Shown here: one piece after another, positions 32,289-40,291 of the stretch | Layout of the letters: each line of letters starts with the position of its first letter | How positions within the stretch are numbered: the stretch's first letter is position 1 | NCBI GenBank assembly: GCA_027307335.1 | Contig: DAHUXD010000024.1 | Span: 1 to 64,000, forward strand | DNA: 64,000 bases | Direction: 5' to 3' | DNA from: Acidobacteriota bacterium | Lineage (GTDB): Bacteria > Acidobacteriota > Thermoanaerobaculia > UBA5066 > Gp7-AA6 | The notes under the pieces: model-generated | Told to the model about the DNA's origin: nothing | Database searches by the model: none | The model's input: only the letters and a program-made list of their open reading frames with translations | Program-made: the position numbers and the translations under genes

Positions 32289-32364
32289 GCCGATGTAGCT
32301 CAGTCGGTAGAGCAGCGGTTTCGTAAACCGCAGGTCACCGGTTCAAGTCCGGTCATCGGCTCCA
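32289..32364 (+). tRNA. tRNA-Thr (anticodon CGT)
   Basis: A full cloverleaf: acceptor stem GCCGATG/CATCGGC, D arm GCTC-AGTCGGTA-GAGC, anticodon arm GCGGT-TTCGTAA-ACCGC with CGT at 34-36, T arm ACCGG-TTCAAGT-CCGGT, discriminator T and encoded CCA. It reads ACG threonine codons. Its 3' half from loop position 32 to the discriminator is duplicated at 40250-40291, marking it as an integration target. Confidence 0.97.
32320..32361 (+). repeat. Left attachment site (attL) in tRNA-Thr
   Basis: These 42 bases, from the first base of the anticodon loop to the discriminator base, are identical to 40250-40291. Integrases of the tyrosine family commonly use tRNA 3' halves and restore the gene with the element's own copy. 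Confidence 0.92.
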
Positions 32365-32373
32365 ACAAATCAA

Positions 32374-32499
32374 TCACTTGCGGAAAGCCCTGACATCCCC
32401 TTCCTCGGCGTGTGGACTCAGTGTGGACTCGGCGTCGGGCTGCGGCACGCGCGCGAGCGTCTCGCGGATGCGCTCTTGGCTATCTGCTCTATCGATGCC
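32374..32499 (-). pseudogene. Integrase C-terminal remnant 1
   Basis: The minus-strand frame ending in TGA at 32374 reads ...ADSQERIRETLARVPQPDA then ESTLSPHAEEGDVRAFRK. The part from PQPDA onward closely matches a second remnant at 35516-35587 (PQPDAKSTLSP...RAAAK). It sits immediately beside attL and reads toward the tRNA, as tRNA-targeting integrase genes usually do. The catalytic domain is gone. Identification as integrase rests on position, orientation and tail character, not on catalytic motifs. Confidence 0.55.
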
Positions 32500-32652
32500 G
32501 CCGGTGTACCACTGGACGCGCCAATGCCTCGATTGTCGAACGTGACCACGTGACGCTTCTCCGCGAGACTAAGCGAACTCCACTCCGCCTGCGGTGATCG
32601 TCCGCGTTGGCACGTTCTTCCAATTGACCGTCTGGTCCTGCGATGTACTCAT
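32480..32652 (-). pseudogene. Alpha/beta-hydrolase gene, truncated and frameshifted
   Basis: AGGAGA followed by ATG at 32652 starts a frame MSTSQDQTVNWKNVPTRT...GGVEFA that stops at 32569. In another frame, starting at about 32570, the sequence continues SLAEKRHVVTFDNRGIGASS then GTPAASIEQIA, the unmistakable early core of an alpha/beta hydrolase. About 40-50 residues including the HG oxyanion region are missing between the two parts, and everything after is replaced by the integrase tail. It follows the quinone oxidoreductase gene by 57 bases, so it was probably the third gene of the TetR-controlled operon. Confidence 0.7.
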
Positions 32653-32709
32653 GTGGCTCTCCTGTCGCGGTGAACCTAACCCCAGTGTGTTCACCTGACC
32701 CGCCGCGTT

Positions 32710-33711
32710 TCACCTCAGCGAGACGACGACCTTGCCCCTTGCGCGTCCTGCTTCGACATACGCCATGGCCTCCTTGGTCGATGCGAAGGGGAAGACTCGA
32801 TCGACGACTGGGCGAATGGTTCCGTCATCGATGAGAGACGTGATCATGGTCAGCTGCTCGCCGTCCGCTCGCATGAAAAGAAACGAGTATTGAGCCTGGC
32901 GGCGCGCTGCTTTCGCTGAAATCCCGTAGCTCAGGACGCCCATGATCGTTCTCAAGACCCATGACGCGCCGATGCCTCGCGCAAAGGCAGCATCGGGCGG
33001 GCCGGAGATGGAAATGAGCTGTCCGCCGGGCTTGAGCACTCGCAGAGATCTCTCGAGCGTCGCCTTGTCCAGGCTATTCAACACGACGTCGTAGTCACGG
33101 AGGGCGTGTGCGAAATCCTCCTTCTTGTAGTCGATCACGATGTCTGCGCCGAGGCTTCTGACCAGATCCACGTTGGCCGTGCTGGTGGTCGTCGCCACCG
33201 TCGCGCCGACGTGCTTCGCCAGTTGAATTGCAAATGTGCCCACGCCACCCGAGCCCGCGTGGATGAGCACCCTTTGTCCCTTTTGGAGATGCGCTCTTTC
33301 GATCAGCGCTTGCCAGGCGGTCAAGCCGACCAGGGGGATCGCAGCCGCCTCTTCCATGGTGAGGGCTTTGGGCTTGACCGCCACGTCACACTCCTTGATC
33401 GCAATGAACTCGGCGAATGCACCGATTCGCCCGTCTGCCGGCCGCGCGTAGACTTCGTCGCCGGGCTTGAATCGGCGCACTCGAGGTCCGACCCGGGCCA
33501 CGATGCCGGCGACGTCGTGGCCCAAGATGAGCGGCAGGCCATACCGCAGAATAAGCTTGAACTCGCCGTTTCTGATTTTGGAATCCAGAAGGTTGACACC
33601 AGCGGCGTGGACTTGGACCAAGACCTCGTCATCGCGCAGCTCCGGAGTCGGCATGTCTGCCAACCGCAACCCGCTCATCTTTCCATAGCGATCGAGGACG
33701 AATGCTTTCAT
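32710..33711 (-). CDS. NADP-dependent quinone-oxidoreductase-type MDR enzyme
   Basis: A 333-residue medium-chain dehydrogenase/reductase without the catalytic zinc site. VQVHAAGVNLLDSKIRNGEF and LILGHDVAGIVARVG form the N-terminal domain; the NADPH fold has AGSGGVGTFAIQLAKHVGA. It likely reduces quinones or enones with NADPH. Its ATG overlaps the SDR stop (ATGA), so the two genes form an operon. Third-position base use is less GC-biased than in chromosomal neighbours. Confidence 0.9.
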   Translation of the reverse strand: MKAFVLDRYGKMSGLRLADMPTPELRDDEVLVQVHAAGVNLLDSKIRNGEFKLILRYGLPLILGHDVAGIVARVGPRVRRFKPGDEVYARPADGRIGAFAEFIAIKECDVAVKPKALTMEEAAAIPLVGLTAWQALIERAHLQKGQRVLIHAGSGGVGTFAIQLAKHVGATVATTTSTANVDLVRSLGADIVIDYKKEDFAHALRDYDVVLNSLDKATLERSLRVLKPGGQLISISGPPDAAFARGIGASWVLRTIMGVLSYGISAKAARRQAQYSFLFMRADGEQLTMITSLIDDGTIRPVVDRVFPFASTKEAMAYVEAGRARGKVVVSLR

Positions 33712-34556
33712 GTTGTTTTCACTACCAGCATCGGGTCGAGCCGCAGATCTCTGCGAATCCCAGCATCCATCAGCCCAGCAGGCGCAAATCTGCGTAGGAA
33801 TCGCAGGCGGCTCGCGAGCCCGCCGGCTGTGTATCGGAGTTTCGGGCGAGCGGCACCAGCGGCTTTCAGCACGACGTCAGCCACGACGCCCGGCTGTTCT
33901 GCGGTTGCCATCACTTCCTTCACGCGCTGTTTCACGGCGGCGCGAACCTCGCGATACTCATCGAGCTTGGCGTCGGGTTCCAGGAAGTTAGCGTCGAACG
34001 GCGTCTTCACGTATGCGGGCTCGATGATCGACACGCGGATCCCCCTCGTGCGGAGCTCGTGGTCGAGCGATTCTGAGTAGCCTTCGATCGCGTGCTTGGT
34101 TGCGGCATAGAGGGCGCCGTACGGCATCGGCAGGAAGCCGAGCACGGAGCCGATGTTGATGATGCGACCGTTCCCTTGGCGCCGCATGTGGGGCACGACG
34201 GCACGCGTCATCCGGACCACTCCGAAGAAGTTCGTCTCGAAGATCGACCGTGCCTGGTCGAGGGAGCTTTCTTCCGCTCCCCCCGGGGCGACACCAAAAC
34301 CGGCGTTGTTCACGAGCAGGTCGATGCGTTCCTCCAGCCGCATCACTTCCTTGACGGCAGCTTCCACGGATTCGTCGCTCGTCACGTCGAGCGGCAGCAT
34401 CTCGAACGATCGCTGGCCTGCTTTGGCGCCGCGCCTGCTGGTGCCGTAGACCTTGTAACCAGCCGCCGCGAGCCTCTGCGCGGTGGCTTCGCCGATGCCT
34501 GACGACGCTCCGGTAACGAGCGCGACCTTGCTCCTCATTGCGACCTTGCTCTTCAT
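33708..34556 (-). CDS. Short-chain dehydrogenase/reductase (oxidoreductase of island operon)
   Basis: A 282-residue classical SDR: TGASSGIGEATAQRLAAAGYKVYGTSRRG for the cofactor (RR suggests NADP), NNAGFGV, catalytic Ser in NIGSVLGF and YAATK. The C-terminal LRRFAPAGLMDAGIRRDLRL extension is common in SDRs paired with TetR regulators. A duplicated start (MKSKVAMRSKVALVTG) may be a small in-frame duplication. It overlaps the downstream MDR gene. The TetR operator copy 51 bases upstream of the start should control it. Confidence 0.9.
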   Translation of the reverse strand: MKSKVAMRSKVALVTGASSGIGEATAQRLAAAGYKVYGTSRRGAKAGQRSFEMLPLDVTSDESVEAAVKEVMRLEERIDLLVNNAGFGVAPGGAEESSLDQARSIFETNFFGVVRMTRAVVPHMRRQGNGRIINIGSVLGFLPMPYGALYAATKHAIEGYSESLDHELRTRGIRVSIIEPAYVKTPFDANFLEPDAKLDEYREVRAAVKQRVKEVMATAEQPGVVADVVLKAAGAARPKLRYTAGGLASRLRFLRRFAPAGLMDAGIRRDLRLDPMLVVKTT

Positions 34557-34606
34557 AGTGTCCTTCCTTCCACGCCCTGCAGTTTCCCGGCCGGCTGAAC
34601 GCGAAG

Positions 34607-34622
34607 TATGATGATCATCATA
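34607..34622. promoter_or_regulatory. TetR operator, copy 1 (SDR promoter)
   Basis: TATGATGATCATCATA, a perfect 16-base palindrome, identical to the one at the start of the TetR gene (35259-35274). It lies between the TetR stop and the SDR start. Confidence 0.85.
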
Positions 34623-34662
34623 TTTAGATACGCACGGGTGGTCGGCACGGGTTCTTGTGAAA

Positions 34663-35259
34663 TCAGTCGCCGGTGTGGCTGAGCTGCTTCAGCGCCGCTT
34701 CGCGCAGCGCGTCCGAGAGGCGTCGGTCGTCGACCGCGCGCGCGAGCACGAGTGCGCCGACCATCGTTGCCACGTTGACGAGCGCGTGCTCGTGCGCGCC
34801 CGGCTGCCCCCAGTCTGGTGACTGACGGGCGACGAGGTCGATCATCTCCTTGATGCGACGCGTGGCGGCGTGCCGCACCTCGGGCGCCTGGCGCGGCATC
34901 TCCGAGCCGAGCGCCGCAACCGCGCAGCCGGTCTCCACGCCTTCCAGGTGCGCCGTCGAGAGGTAGGCACTGCCCAGCGCGTGCAGCGCCTGCTTCGGCG
35001 GCGCAGCCGCTGCGATGCGCGCCACCGCGGCGATGCCGTCGGCGCCGGCACGGTCGGCCGCCTCGGCGAGCATCGCCTCCCGCGAAGCGAAGTGGGCATA
35101 GAAGCCACCATGCGTCAGGCCGGCCTCCTTCATGATGTCGGCGACGCCGGTGCCACCGTAGCCGCTGCGCCGGATGGCGCGTGCGGCGGCCTCCACGATG
35201 CGATCGTGAGTGACGTCCTTTCGTCTGGAACTGTTTCGTTTTTTCGACGCAACTCGCAT
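34663..35259 (-). CDS. TetR-family transcriptional regulator
   Basis: A 198-residue repressor. The HTH is typical: THDRIVEAAARAIRRSGYGGTGVADIMKEAGLTHGGFYAHFASREAMLAEA, at about 17-67. The ligand domain is short with CAVAALGSEMPRQ. The in-frame open sequence extends 50 residues further upstream, but those residues are unlike TetR. The identical palindromes at its own start and before the downstream SDR operon indicate autoregulation and repression of the SDR/MDR genes, relieved by an electrophile or other unknown ligand. Confidence 0.92.
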   Translation of the reverse strand: MRVASKKRNSSRRKDVTHDRIVEAAARAIRRSGYGGTGVADIMKEAGLTHGGFYAHFASREAMLAEAADRAGADGIAAVARIAAAAPPKQALHALGSAYLSTAHLEGVETGCAVAALGSEMPRQAPEVRHAATRRIKEMIDLVARQSPDWGQPGAHEHALVNVATMVGALVLARAVDDRRLSDALREAALKQLSHTGD

Positions 35260-35274
35260 ATGATGATCATCATA
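35259..35274. promoter_or_regulatory. TetR operator, copy 2 (TetR promoter)
   Basis: TATGATGATCATCATA abuts and overlaps the first base of the TetR start codon. Bound repressor would cover the transcription or translation start directly; there is no room for a ribosome-binding site, so the transcript is probably leaderless. Confidence 0.85.
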
Positions 35275-35515
35275 CCATCTGCGGCGGCGGAACAAAAGCG
35301 TTGGCTGGAGCTCCGATTCCTTGTGATTAAACAGCCCCCAGCCGTTGGCGATGAGCCGGTCGGCGAGCGCGAGGTCGACGTCGTCGAGGCTCGCCGTCCG
35401 AAGCGTCAACGCATCGAGGATCTCCTCCTGGAAGTCCTGTCTCTTCTGACGCTAATCGGATATCGAGACCGACGGTCGCCCGCCCGGCCACCGCCCTTCC
35501 CTCCCGTGCCCGCAA

Positions 35516-35587
35516 CTACTTGGCGGCGGCCCTTGCCCTTCCCGAAGGCGCCGGTGGACTCAGCGTGGACTTAGCGTCGGGCTGCGG
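35516..35587 (-). pseudogene. Integrase C-terminal remnant 2
   Basis: The minus-strand frame reads PQPDAKSTLSPPAPSGRARA then AAK and TAG. At DNA level 35554-35588 matches 32412-32446 at 32 of 35 positions. The frame is cut off at the upstream side where the beta-propeller fragment begins. A second integrase scar inside the island suggests that the island grew by successive insertions. The 256 bases from 35260 to 35515 contain the TetR operator and an open but unrecognised minus-strand frame. Confidence 0.5.
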
Positions 35588-35590
35588 CGG

Positions 35591-35698
35591 CTGACAGAGA
35601 ACGGGTCCCTTCCTTTGTGGCTGTCGGACAGCCAGCGTCTCCTTTACAACAAAGACGGAGGGATCTGGATCATCGACCGTTCCCGCCTTCCGGGCTGA
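35591..35698 (+). pseudogene. C-terminal fragment of a WD40/TolB-like beta-propeller protein
   Basis: The frame LTENGSLPLWLSDSQRLLYN then KDGGIWIIDRSRLPG ends in TGA at 35696-35698. The pattern (P)xWLSDSxRLLYxxDGxIxxID is the PD40/TolB blade repeated in propeller proteins, often fused to Ser/Thr kinases in Acidobacteriota. Only one blade remains; the break coincides with the edge of integrase remnant 2. It meets the ADOP gene tail to tail. Confidence 0.6.
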
Positions 35699-38140
35699 CT
35701 AATTTCGCAAGGCGAGCAGCGGATCTCCGGCCATCGCTCGCCGCGCAGGGATGTAGCACGCGAGAAGGGCGACGAACACGAGCAGGAGAGTCGCGCCGGC
35801 CAGCGTGACAGGATCGGAGGGACTCACCCCGAAGAGGATGCTGGCGAGGGCACGCGGCACGACGAGCGCTGCTGCCAGGCCGACGAGCGCTCCGGGAAGG
35901 ATCAGCCTGAGGCCGTCACCGAGAACGAGTCGGAGGAGATCGCCGGGCTTCGCACCGATCGCGATGCGGATAGCTATTTCTCTCGCGCGCTGGGCGACGC
36001 CGTAGGCGAGCACTCCATACAGGCCGATCGATGCCAATAGGAGTGCCAGAACAGCGAAGGCACCGGCAAGTTTCGACATCAACCGCTCGGTTCCGAGCGA
36101 TTCGGCGGCAAACTCCGACTGCGTTTCTACGCTGACGATCGGCAAGTCTTTGTCGATCGCCTGCACTTCTCGGCGGATCGCGGCCGCGCCGGCCTTGGCA
36201 TCCATCGCCGTGCGCAGCGCGATCGTTATCTGGCCGAGTCTGTTGGCGGGGGTCTGCGTAATCGGGATGTACACCGCCGGACGGGAACTTTCGTCCCGGA
36301 GACTCAGCGATTTCACGTTTCGGGCCACGCCGACGATCTCGAATCCCTCTGCGATATCAGCTTCATCTCCGAAACGGAAGCGCTGGCCGAGAACGCCGGA
36401 ATGCGGAAAGTATGTGCGCGCGAACGCTTCGCTGACCACGGCGACTCGGGGTGCCGTGGGACCGTCCCCGGGTCCGAAGTCGCGCCCCTGGAGCACTGGC
36501 ACGCCCATGGTCTCGAAGAATCTGCTGGAGATTGGATAGCAGAAAGCCGTCGGGCCGTCGGGACGTGCTCCCGGGAATGAGATCTGCCTGGACCAGCGCC
36601 CGGCCAGAAAGCCGAAGCGCGAAAGGCTCGCGGAACGCACGCCCGGGATCCCTTGGAGCTGCTCCTGCAGGCGCGAATACAGATCCAGTTCCCTGGCCCC
36701 CTCATATCCCACGATCGTCGGGTAGGCTCGGACGAGAAGGACTCGATCCCGCTCGAACCCCGGGTCCACTCGAGTCAACTCGTAAAGAGTTCTCGCGAGC
36801 AGTCCCGCGGCGACGAGCAGGACCACGGACAGGGACACCTGGAACATCACGAGCGCTCTTCGAAGGCCGGTTGTCCGCCCGCCTCCGCCCTGCACGGAGG
36901 CGTCCTTGAGTACAGAGTTGAGGTCCGTCGTCGTGGCGCGCAGCGCCGGCGCTAGACCGAACAGGATTCCGACCGCGAGCGAGAGCGCGGCGGTGAACCC
37001 CATGACGCGCGCGTCGTGGTGAAGCTCGAGCGAAATTGAGGCGGGGCCGGTGCCGACGAGTTTCAGAAGCGCATCGCTGCCCCACGCCGCGAGCAGGAAT
37101 CCGAGCAGCCCGCCAGCGAGCGCGAGCATGACGCTCTCCGTGAGTAGCTGCCGGATCAGCCGGGACCGGGCCGCTCCGATCGCCAGCCGGAGTGCGATTT
37201 CCTTCCGCCTCGCCATCGACCTCGCCAGCATCAGGTTGGCGACGTTGGCGCATGCGATCAGGAGAACGGCCATGACGACCGCCATCAGAATGGCGAGCGG
37301 AACGGCAAACTCGTCCCGAAGATCGGAAAGACCTCTCGCTCCCGGGACGAGCACGATACGGGACGCGTCGCGTGCCTGCCCGTTCGACGAGGTCGCATCG
37401 AATTGGGGCGCCCTGACGTCGGATGCCCGATAGATTGCGTCAAGCTCATCTCGCGCAGACTCCTGACTGATCCCTGGTCTCAGCCTTCCCATGATTCCCA
37501 CCGAGACGTGGTCGTTGAGACGGAGCCGGGCCCAATGAGCCATGGGCATCCAAAGATCCGGAGCGTCGCCGGGCTCGATTCCGAGAAATCCCTCGGGAGC
37601 GACTCCGATAATCGTGAATGGGATGCCCTTGAGCACGATCGTTCGGCCCAGAACGGAGTCGAGAGCGAAGCGGCGTCTCCAGTAGCTGTAGCTGATGACG
37701 GCGGCAGGAGGACTTCCGGATCGGTCGTCATCGGGCACGAGGGTTCGCCCGCTGGAGGGTCGGATACCGAGGAGTTCGAAGAAATTTCCAGAGACGCACT
37801 GTCCCCAGAGGACCTCCGGCTGTCCGTCGACGCCAGCGCTCAGACGGGTCGTGTCGAACGCCAAGACGCCTGACAGGGATTTGTTGTTATCGCGGATTTG
37901 CTCGAAGAGCGTCTTCGGAAAGCCGTCATCCGTTCCCGTTCTCGAGACCGCTTCGAGAAAAAAGAGCTGCTTGGGGCTCCTCACGGGAAGTGTCCTCAAG
38001 ATGACGGCGTCGACGAGACTGAAAATCGCGGTGTTGGCCCCAATGCCCAGCGCCAGCGTGAGAATCACGGCGATCATGAATCCGGGGCTCCTGCGGAGGG
38101 TGCGCAGCGCAAGCTGAGTATCTCGTGCGAGGATCTCCAT
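35699..38140 (-). CDS. ADOP-type orphan ABC permease (MacB/FtsX family)
   Basis: An 813-residue protein with the duplicated layout of acidobacterial orphan permeases. It opens with DTQLALRTLRRSPGFMIAVILTLALGIGANTAIFSLVDAVILRTLP; then come a MacB-type periplasmic core (about 50-245), an FtsX domain with three helices (about 280-420), a second periplasmic core (about 435-670) and a second FtsX domain (about 690-805) ending PARRAMAGDPLLALRN. No ATPase gene is adjacent. Its substrate is unknown; relatives are extremely numerous in Acidobacteriota, which supports the taxonomic guess. It lies in the island. Confidence 0.93.
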   Translation of the reverse strand: MEILARDTQLALRTLRRSPGFMIAVILTLALGIGANTAIFSLVDAVILRTLPVRSPKQLFFLEAVSRTGTDDGFPKTLFEQIRDNNKSLSGVLAFDTTRLSAGVDGQPEVLWGQCVSGNFFELLGIRPSSGRTLVPDDDRSGSPPAAVISYSYWRRRFALDSVLGRTIVLKGIPFTIIGVAPEGFLGIEPGDAPDLWMPMAHWARLRLNDHVSVGIMGRLRPGISQESARDELDAIYRASDVRAPQFDATSSNGQARDASRIVLVPGARGLSDLRDEFAVPLAILMAVVMAVLLIACANVANLMLARSMARRKEIALRLAIGAARSRLIRQLLTESVMLALAGGLLGFLLAAWGSDALLKLVGTGPASISLELHHDARVMGFTAALSLAVGILFGLAPALRATTTDLNSVLKDASVQGGGGRTTGLRRALVMFQVSLSVVLLVAAGLLARTLYELTRVDPGFERDRVLLVRAYPTIVGYEGARELDLYSRLQEQLQGIPGVRSASLSRFGFLAGRWSRQISFPGARPDGPTAFCYPISSRFFETMGVPVLQGRDFGPGDGPTAPRVAVVSEAFARTYFPHSGVLGQRFRFGDEADIAEGFEIVGVARNVKSLSLRDESSRPAVYIPITQTPANRLGQITIALRTAMDAKAGAAAIRREVQAIDKDLPIVSVETQSEFAAESLGTERLMSKLAGAFAVLALLLASIGLYGVLAYGVAQRAREIAIRIAIGAKPGDLLRLVLGDGLRLILPGALVGLAAALVVPRALASILFGVSPSDPVTLAGATLLLVFVALLACYIPARRAMAGDPLLALRN

Positions 38141-38343: not shown

Positions 38344-39141
38344 CTAGAGGGCGCGGAGCAGTTCCTCGGTGAGAGCCGAACAGGAGGCCCTGATCGTGTC
38401 CTCCGGCTCGAGTCCTGCCGCTGCGCGGGATGCGAGAATCGAGCCTGCCGCCGCCGGGCGTGCGAAAAGACCTTCGAGATGCTGCAGCGCCTCGGCGGTG
38501 ACGACTGTGGATCGCGAGTCCTGGCTGAGACGGCGCAGGCGCTGCGCGATGTTCTCCGTGGAAACGCCTCGAAGGAGCCTGAGGATGTCGAGGGCATCCT
38601 TGTCCTTGACTCGGCTGGGCTCCTCGATCCGCTCCGAAAGCTTGTGGAGCTTACTGACGAGCAGCGCGGCCGGACCGGCCACGAGGACCTCGAATCGCCG
38701 TCCACCCTCCTGGAACGAAGTGATCTCCCGGATTTCCTGGTCGACCAAGGCTCCCTCTAAGCCACGGGCCTTGCGGGCGGCGCGGTTACCATGAGGCCCG
38801 AGTCTCGCGCCACGCGTGCCTGCGGCGGCGATCGCCTCGGGAACCATCAGGTCGACCCGGGCATCATCCTTGACCCACTGCCCAGGTTGATCACCGAGCA
38901 CGAAGCCGGATGCCTGAAGCGCCTCCCCAATGATCGGGTGGTCGGCAAGACCAGCTGGGTCGATGATGACATCGGCGTCGGTGGTGAAGGGGGCGACGGC
39001 GATGTCGGCTTCCCCGGTTTGTAAGTAGATCGCCTGAGCGCCGACCAGCACTAACGATGAGCGGTGCGGGCCGAGAGCGTCGAGGGCGTCGAGCAGGACC
39101 TCCCGCGCCTTGACGTAGAGCGAGTCAGGCGCGCCAGGCAT
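38344..39141 (-). CDS. Nucleotidyltransferase-fold protein, AbiEii-like toxin candidate
   Basis: A 265-residue protein. LVLVGAQAIYLQTG...APFTTDADVII carries the G(G/A)xA and TxDxD motifs of the DNA polymerase beta-like nucleotidyltransferases, and RVKDKDALDILRLL matches the conserved Lys-Asp helix of the AbiEii/MenT group. The start overlaps the end of the HTH gene upstream by 17 bases. This order (regulator, then nucleotidyltransferase) resembles type IV AbiE systems, in which the toxin modifies tRNA or other targets. Assignment is by motifs and context. Confidence 0.75.
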   Translation of the reverse strand: MPGAPDSLYVKAREVLLDALDALGPHRSSLVLVGAQAIYLQTGEADIAVAPFTTDADVIIDPAGLADHPIIGEALQASGFVLGDQPGQWVKDDARVDLMVPEAIAAAGTRGARLGPHGNRAARKARGLEGALVDQEIREITSFQEGGRRFEVLVAGPAALLVSKLHKLSERIEEPSRVKDKDALDILRLLRGVSTENIAQRLRRLSQDSRSTVVTAEALQHLEGLFARPAAAGSILASRAAAGLEPEDTIRASCSALTEELLRAL

Positions 39142-40156
39142 CAGTGTTCTTCCTCATCCAGGCGATCAGTTCCTCGCCCTCGGAGGGTCCTCGTCCGGGG
39201 CTCGTCAGAAGATCCGCGGCGACCTGCGACAGGGCTGCATACCCGATGCCCTCATCGACCCAGCTCCTCGAAAAGACTACCGAATCGAGAGGACGGACCA
39301 GGGTCACGTTGCCGCCCGACTCAGCGGGACGCAGCGCGAGCGCCTTGGCAGCGGCCTCCGGGTCATCGACGTAGACGGCGGCCAGGCGGGGCGACGCTAC
39401 CGGCGCGCGACGCACCGCCGCCAGCGAGCCGGTGACCACCGCACGCACCTTGAGATCCCTCACCTTCGCTGGGAAAGAGGCGAGACCCCGAGGGTCGAGA
39501 AACATCGCGACCTCGTTCGACGAGAGAAAGCCGTAGTCCTGAATCCAGCGCTGGAGCAACCCGGCCCAGTCGACCTCACGGATCTCATCGCGCGGCCCGC
39601 GTTCGATCAGGGCTTCTCTCTCCAGCAGACTGACGACGCGTGAGGCCGACGCTGGCGCCGTCTGTGCGATGTCAGCGAGTCGGCGCACGCCGTAGGGCGG
39701 GCGAACGTCGCAGAGCGCCCGCACGACGCGGGCGGCTGCGGGGCCCTTTAATGATGCCAGCGGTCGCGGCTCCCGTCCGGGATCCTTCTGGGCTCCCTCC
39801 GCCTCCACAAAGATTCCCGGCCGGTCGGCCACGACGCGCATGTTGCCGGAGGCGTCCGCGTAGCTGGCGCCGGCCTCCTTCAGCAGCTGCCGGGTGCGCG
39901 GGCTCAGAAACTCCGCCGTGACGAGGGTGCCCTTTAAGTCCGGTCCGGATGCGATGCGGAGTGCCTGCACGTCCTTGGGCTCCAGCTTCCGTCGCCGCAG
40001 AACAGTGAGCTTTGCAGTCGTGCCGTCTGGTGCGCGAAGGCTCACCGTCGAGGCCATGGGCGGACCTTCGAGGCGCCAGGTCGGCGGAAGACGGTTGGCC
40101 ACGAGCCGTAGCGTCGTGCTAAGTTCACGTGTTCCAGAAATATCGCTGTTCCTCAT
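39125..40156 (-). CDS. Winged-helix protein, AbiEi-like antitoxin/regulator candidate
   Basis: A 343-residue protein. Residues about 10-120 look like a restriction-endonuclease-like fold (LVANRLPPTWRLE..., SGNMRVVADRPGIFVEAEG). A winged helix follows at about 135-190 (CDVRPPYGVRRLADIAQTAP, ASRVVSLLEREALIERGPR). The C-terminal domain resembles the AbiEi C-terminal region. The ATG at 40156 lies within an operator; a second ATG at 40057 has GAAGG upstream but would remove 33 residues with coding character. It overlaps the nucleotidyltransferase gene, suggesting a co-expressed antitoxin. Confidence 0.68.
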   Translation of the reverse strand: MRNSDISGTRELSTTLRLVANRLPPTWRLEGPPMASTVSLRAPDGTTAKLTVLRRRKLEPKDVQALRIASGPDLKGTLVTAEFLSPRTRQLLKEAGASYADASGNMRVVADRPGIFVEAEGAQKDPGREPRPLASLKGPAAARVVRALCDVRPPYGVRRLADIAQTAPASASRVVSLLEREALIERGPRDEIREVDWAGLLQRWIQDYGFLSSNEVAMFLDPRGLASFPAKVRDLKVRAVVTGSLAAVRRAPVASPRLAAVYVDDPEAAAKALALRPAESGGNVTLVRPLDSVVFSRSWVDEGIGYAALSQVAADLLTSPGRGPSEGEELIAWMRKNTDAWRA

Positions 40157-40185: not shown

Positions 40186-40249
40186 TACGAGTCAACTCTG
40201 AGTACTCAGCTGTCGAGATGGCGGCCACCATCGCGTATCGACAATCTGC

Positions 40250-40291
40250 TTCGTAAACCGCAGGTCACCGGTTCAAGTCCGGTCATCGGCT
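40250..40291 (+). repeat. Right attachment site (attR), displaced tRNA-Thr 3' half
   Basis: Identical over 42 bases to 32320-32361. The 5' half of a tRNA is absent, so this is not a gene. After the repeat the sequence reads GAATCC rather than CCA, whereas the left copy is followed by CCA. Confidence 0.92.

Follow-up and report, generated by a model that had tools for sequence, protein, structure and literature searches.

Two minus-strand frames in the window (the whole 64,000-nucleotide stretch of Acidobacteriota DNA that was analysed) end in closely similar sequences, and both lie inside a single island inserted at a tRNA gene. The question is what the shared sequence is, and why the island holds it twice. 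The first-pass annotation took the two frames for the C-terminal tails of related integrases that had inserted one after the other.

The island and its duplicated sequence

The island is 7.9 kb long, and at its ends stand two identical 42-bp copies of the 3' end of tRNA-Thr(CGT), with the core sequence TTCGTAAACCGCAGGTCACCGGTTCAAGTCCGGTCATCGGCT. The duplicated tDNA fragment lies at the far end of the island in the correct orientation for a tRNA-borne island, and the attL site of the first-pass annotation was borne out by both the tRNA gene and the cores (Table 1). The empty site was seen in three relatives of the order (G002, G194 and G487), where SMC is followed by a single tRNA-Thr, and the SMC-tRNA-Thr stretches fetched from these genomes contained no homologues of the island genes. 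GC content is 61-68% in the island interior, against 70-80% in the flanks. The island has no integrase gene; a PF00589 scan of the genome gave six matches, none of them in the contig of the window (C33), and no integrase remnant elsewhere in the island was present among the tblastn matches listed.

The direct repeat (copies at 32412-32446 and 35554-35588) is identical at 32 of 35 bp, the figure given in the first-pass annotation; matches of this kind expected in shuffled windows number 0, and the 4.37-Mb genome holds two copies in all, both in the island. Translation confirmed the two annotated minus-strand frames. Copy 1 reads PQPDAESTLSPHAEEGDVRAFRK and ends in ERIRETLARVPQPDAESTLSPHAEEGDVRAFRK before its stop at 32374-32376, while copy 2 reads PQPDAKSTLSPPAPSGRARAAAK and ends in QPPQPDAKSTLSPPAPSGRARAAAK before its stop at 35516-35518. 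The codon count to the stop is equal in the two tails, without an indel, and two of the three differences in the 35-bp core are synonymous. Beyond the 35 bp on the stop-ward side, identity drops to 17/39 (P ~0.02 against random island pairs), and upstream of the core no similarity between the copies is evident. The stop of tail 1 lies 10 bp from the tRNA 3' end, as in the cases with an intact integrase.

The hydrolase pseudogene beside tail 1 keeps its N-terminus and a VVTFDNRGIGASSGTP motif, is internally deleted, and is truncated at the tail 1 junction. The gene fragment beside copy 2 had been labelled a beta-propeller, a label that we could not sustain, with no Pfam match and no convincing PDB match. 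Between the TetR gene and tail 2, a minus-strand open frame (FQEEILDALTLRTASLDDVDLALADRLIANGWGLFN, 35327-35460; no Pfam match) may be what is left of a further gene at the presumed junction. The nucleotidyltransferase and AbiEi-like genes at the island's right end overlap on the minus strand (38344-40156); they may form an AbiE-like (type IV) toxin-antitoxin pair, which could keep an immobile island stable.

Table 1. Features of the tRNA-Thr(CGT) island, in window coordinates
Feature	Position	Strand	Basis or remark
tRNA-Thr(CGT), restored target gene, 3' end = attL	32289..32364	+	ARAGORN; Rfam tRNA
attL core, 42 bp, starts in anticodon region	32320..32361	+	perfect duplicate of 40250-40291
Tail 1, probable 3' end of lost integrase gene, ERIRETLARVPQPDAESTLSPHAEEGDVRAFRK (stop)	32374..32475	-	presumed integrase identity
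attL-side arm-type pair GAGTCCACAC-T-GAGTCCACAC, period 11	32410..32430	-	45 bp from tRNA 3' end
alpha/beta-hydrolase pseudogene	32476..32656	-	weak PDB match 4pw0, E 0.035; Pfam Abhydrolase_1, E 0.2
Cargo 1: zinc-type quinone oxidoreductase/alcohol dehydrogenase	32710..33711	-	Pfam PF13602
Cargo 1: short-chain dehydrogenase	33708..34556	-	Pfam PF00106
Cargo 1: TetR-family regulator	34663..35259	-	Pfam PF00440
Tail 2, second related relic, PPQPDAKSTLSPPAPSGRARAAAK (stop)	35516..35588	-	repeat identity, frame comparison
Internal arm-type pair AAGTCCACGC-T-GAGTCCACCG, period 11	35552..35572	-	tandem-repeat analysis
3' gene fragment cut at end of tail 2	35589..35700	+	reading frame; no Pfam match
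Cargo 2: MacB/FtsX-type (ADOP-like) permease	35699..38140	-	Pfam PF12704, PF02687
Cargo 2: NTP_transf_8 nucleotidyltransferase (AbiEii-like position)	38344..39141	-	Pfam PF12281
Cargo 2: winged-helix / AbiEi_2-like protein	39125..40156	-	PF09952, E 5e-4, just below cut-off
attR-side arm-type pair GAGTCAACTC-T-GAGTACTCAG, period 11	40189..40209	+	matrix scan, random control
attR core, 42 bp	40250..40291	+	perfect duplicate of 32320-32361

Arm-type repeat pairs around the att core

Each 35-bp copy was found to hold a head-to-tail pair of units of about 10 bp, with a period of 11 bp. Head-to-tail direct repeats of this length are a hallmark of the lambda-type arm sites bound by Int. A period of 11 bp places the two units of a pair in different reading frames, indicating that the constraint acts on the DNA, and from its sequence the conserved part of the repeat is best read as a set of DNA-binding sites rather than as a conserved protein tail. 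Lambda-type integrases engage core sites through the C-terminal domain and arm sites through the N-terminal domain, giving the intasome (PMC2951348).

A scan matrix was built from the two tails and run over the 64-kb window. The third-best site, after both tails, was CGAGTCAACTCTGAGTACTCA at 40188-40208, the pair itself spanning 40189-40209. This pair is inverted relative to the attL-side pair and lies 40 bp inside the attR core, at the expected place of the second attP arm. Its score was matched by 0 of 1500 random stretches when the spacing was held at 11-12, and by 5 of 1500 when spacings of 8-14 were allowed. The pair is degenerate, its units matching at 8/10 and 7/10 positions, so that the evidence for a second arm is strong, not conclusive. 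Short direct repeats stand on both sides of the core, as in a lambda-type attP, those on the attR side in degenerate form. An arm-like match in the permease gene (GGGTCCACTC / GAGTCAACTC, 36762-36781) is chance-like, which calls for caution over the significance of single degenerate pairs. Neither the tandem 11-bp structure within the repeat nor the third, inverted pair by attR had been noticed in the first-pass annotation.

Taken together, the core, the repeats and the inverted attR pair would be the attachment-site architecture of an integrative island inserted into tRNA-Thr(CGT), with each copy of the repeat presenting two head-to-tail arm sites of about 10 bp, period 11, to which the integrase would bind. 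A comparable arrangement is found in the attP of CrimD, a mycobacteriophage of cluster K1, where two pairs of 11-bp repeats flank the core and are mutually inverted; the pairs of Giles and L5 are in direct orientation (PMC3203893). The island shares with CrimD the two 11-bp pairs inverted around the core and a tRNA-like target (tmRNA in CrimD) (PMC3203893). It differs in that the CrimD core lies 5' of an intact int, whereas the pair in the island lies in the probable 3' end of an int that is gone, and the repeat sequences of the two are unrelated.

Intact integrases and the identity of the tails

The tails gave no Pfam match. The first-pass annotation had proposed a protein search against intact integrases, and this found no homologue of the tails among 149 class genomes, all matches to the tail peptide being chance ones. 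The best-looking of them, in G328, is in the wrong frame at a locus that reads like two-component, and was rejected. At the DNA level, the core pattern had 2 matches in viral contigs and 22 in 84,980 species genomes, none beside an integrase, and with 1 mismatch allowed the 396 genomes of the phylum gave one match outside the island's own genome, in an unrelated ORF. A DNA match to the repeat on contig C59 was discarded as a GC-rich chance match. The upstream peptide ERIRETLARV looked good by eye as the helix after the catalytic tyrosine; its score was in the top 1.5% of window positions, far below that of true members, and it was therefore set aside as integrase evidence.

The tails were then compared with those integrases of the same order that are encoded by genes converging on the 3' end of a tRNA. 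Tandem repeats, counted at a score of at least 9 in the 3' coding end, were found in 8 of these 11 integrases, which are only partly independent, several of them sharing a genome or a genus; the repeats lie 43-71 bp from the tRNA, and all those counted have a period of 12. Such repeats were far rarer in the controls, at 24 of 594 other ORF ends (Fisher 4e-9) and 2 of 52 other integrases (Fisher 2e-6). Two islands with intact integrases served as positive controls for the far arm: CGAACTCC pairs recur inside attR in the 10.6-kb tRNA-Val island of G493, and GTGACGCG copies do so in the 7.5-kb tRNA-Arg island of G495 (0/1500 in each case). The attR arms are in direct orientation in both of these islands and inverted in the island of the window.

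Other islands add to the range of layouts. The same genome (G000) carries a second island, of about 15.7 kb, at tRNA-Pro(GGG) (contig C38, 51.5-67.5 kb; L205); its integrase is intact and has at its 3' end a perfect 14-bp tandem repeat that encodes NEHTNEHT. There was no attR arm signal in this island, whose attR core copy is imperfect, with 2 mismatches. In another family of the class, a 47-kb island of G044 (contig C51, L214-L216) occupies the same tRNA-Thr(CGT). Its integrase converges on the tRNA, a CGCCTATGG pair of period 12 lies between the core and the gene, and the attR arm signal is weak (18/1500). Several integrases (L139, L147, L151, L182 and L183) reach or cross the tRNA, and their ends are antisense-tRNA peptides or repetitive tails; among these integrases of the order the tails vary with the tRNA target, while the catalytic part is alike.

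From these comparisons the tails are probably the 3' ends of integrase genes. What the first-pass annotation had assigned from place and orientation is strengthened by the repeat structure, the 45-bp distance to the tRNA, the match in position to intact integrases and the attR pair; the protein homology that it had hoped for was not forthcoming. Our main reading, to which we give a probability of about 0.7, is that the repeats are what remains of a lambda-type attachment site, namely of its attL-side arm, which overlapped the 3' coding end of now lost tyrosine-integrase genes, in an island left without an integrase. It is built on features read from the sequence: the repeats and the cores, a third pair beside attR, the lack of an integrase gene in the island, and intact islands of the order that are laid out in the same way.

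The tails might never have been coding, and might instead be non-coding attP arm DNA of an integrase lost from elsewhere in the island. This would agree with a conserved unit that is an 11-bp DNA repeat out of codon register, with the lack of a recognisable integrase residue pattern, and with the arm-like repeats of G044, which appear just past the int stop. However, the two frames reach their stop after the same number of codons, without any indel between them, most of the few core differences are synonymous, and the repeats of the compared intact tRNA-convergent integrases sit in the int 3' end, so we consider non-coding tails unlikely.

Origin of the internal copy and nature of the island

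If the tails are integrase ends, the integrase gene would have been deleted after insertion, sparing its last ~20-30 codons and leaving both att ends intact. The internal copy would then most simply be the left end of another, related element that was added by accretion and whose att core, now internal, was later lost. On such a reconstruction of events the internal core, the bodies of both integrase genes and parts of the adjoining genes would all have been deleted, the hydrolase pseudogene by tail 1 and the plus-strand fragment by tail 2 being the trimmed neighbours. Two successive insertions, as put forward in the first-pass annotation, are plausible, the internal copy being divergent everywhere except in its arm sites, but a tandem array should show an att core some 10 bp to the left of tail 2, and none is present. 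Neither a core nor a P-arm was found beside tail 2, where the best local core match is 13/20. Two-step accretion is unproven because this core is missing, and we judge its chances to be about even. In terms of a tandem island array, an att core belonging to each member is lacking, while two related relics, presumably of integrases, are present.

Local duplication or rearrangement within a single element could also have produced the internal copy. No second att core and no second set of island ends are present, and the stretch between the repeat copies coincides exactly with cargo 1, all of which favours a single element. Against this, the two copies are strongly divergent immediately beyond the arm sites, and the frame length to the stop is nevertheless equal; together these features point to two integrase genes that had diverged, not to recent copying, and make a single element doubtful. 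It is very unlikely that the cargo includes two genes of some other protein family whose C-terminus is the 35-bp repeat: the frames are open and their stop positions match, but neither Pfam nor the 149 class genomes supplied a relative, and the distance to the tRNA and the attR pair would be left unexplained. A dispersed short intergenic element (MITE/REP-like) inserted twice, a dispersed element being one alternative named in the first-pass annotation, could account for a short, two-copy sequence whose homology ends abruptly, yet is highly improbable, given only two genomic copies, no copy in a meaningful context among the 396 phylum genomes at 1 mismatch, and a third related pair at the attR end that places all three inside one island.

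The best reading of the island as a whole is an integrase-less, CIME-like and possibly composite island that has kept both attP arms. Its att ends are retained, the integrase is absent, and no transfer gene was seen among the Pfam-scanned proteins. With the integrase lost and the att ends intact, excision of the island would in principle require a related integrase acting in trans, and some mobility may remain. In the CIME accretion model of the ICESt1 family (PMC5704250) att sites are kept and integration and transfer genes are lost, a pattern that the island appears to share, and the internal relic is compatible with a second element as in that model. Unlike a CIME, the island has no internal att site and no known ICE relative, and any mobilization of it would be putative; our searches found neither a parental ICE/IME nor the cognate integrase.

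With tDNA islands of the Islander kind that have an anticodon-centred (A-type) core (PMC4383910), the island shares the 3' tDNA fragment at the far end and a core that starts in the anticodon loop. It differs from them in having no integrase gene, and would for that reason be removed by Islander's integrase filter. Mx8 IntP, whose gene runs across attP, is similar in that the int 3' coding end overlaps attachment-site DNA (cited in PMC4383910). The int frame of the window differs in stopping 10 bp before the tRNA, and no homology to IntP was found.

For this locus, where there was an inference from place there is now an attachment site that can be tested, its core and both arms located. The more general point lies beyond it, in putative arm sites within int 3' coding ends across an order. 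We tentatively propose, at somewhat less than even odds, that the tRNA-convergent integrases of this lineage carry arm sites in their own 3' coding end, that repetitive C-termini such as NEHTNEHT, TNTRTNTR and EVAREVARE are set by the constraint on the DNA site and not by protein function, and that when the integrase decays the arm-bearing tail persists and the island stays mobilizable in trans. An arm-type pair that lies 40-70 bp from the 3' end of a tRNA and recurs close to the far core could then serve as a sequence-level mark of the ends of integrase-less islands. If true, this would account for the repetitive, unalignable sequence at the very C-terminus of these integrases.
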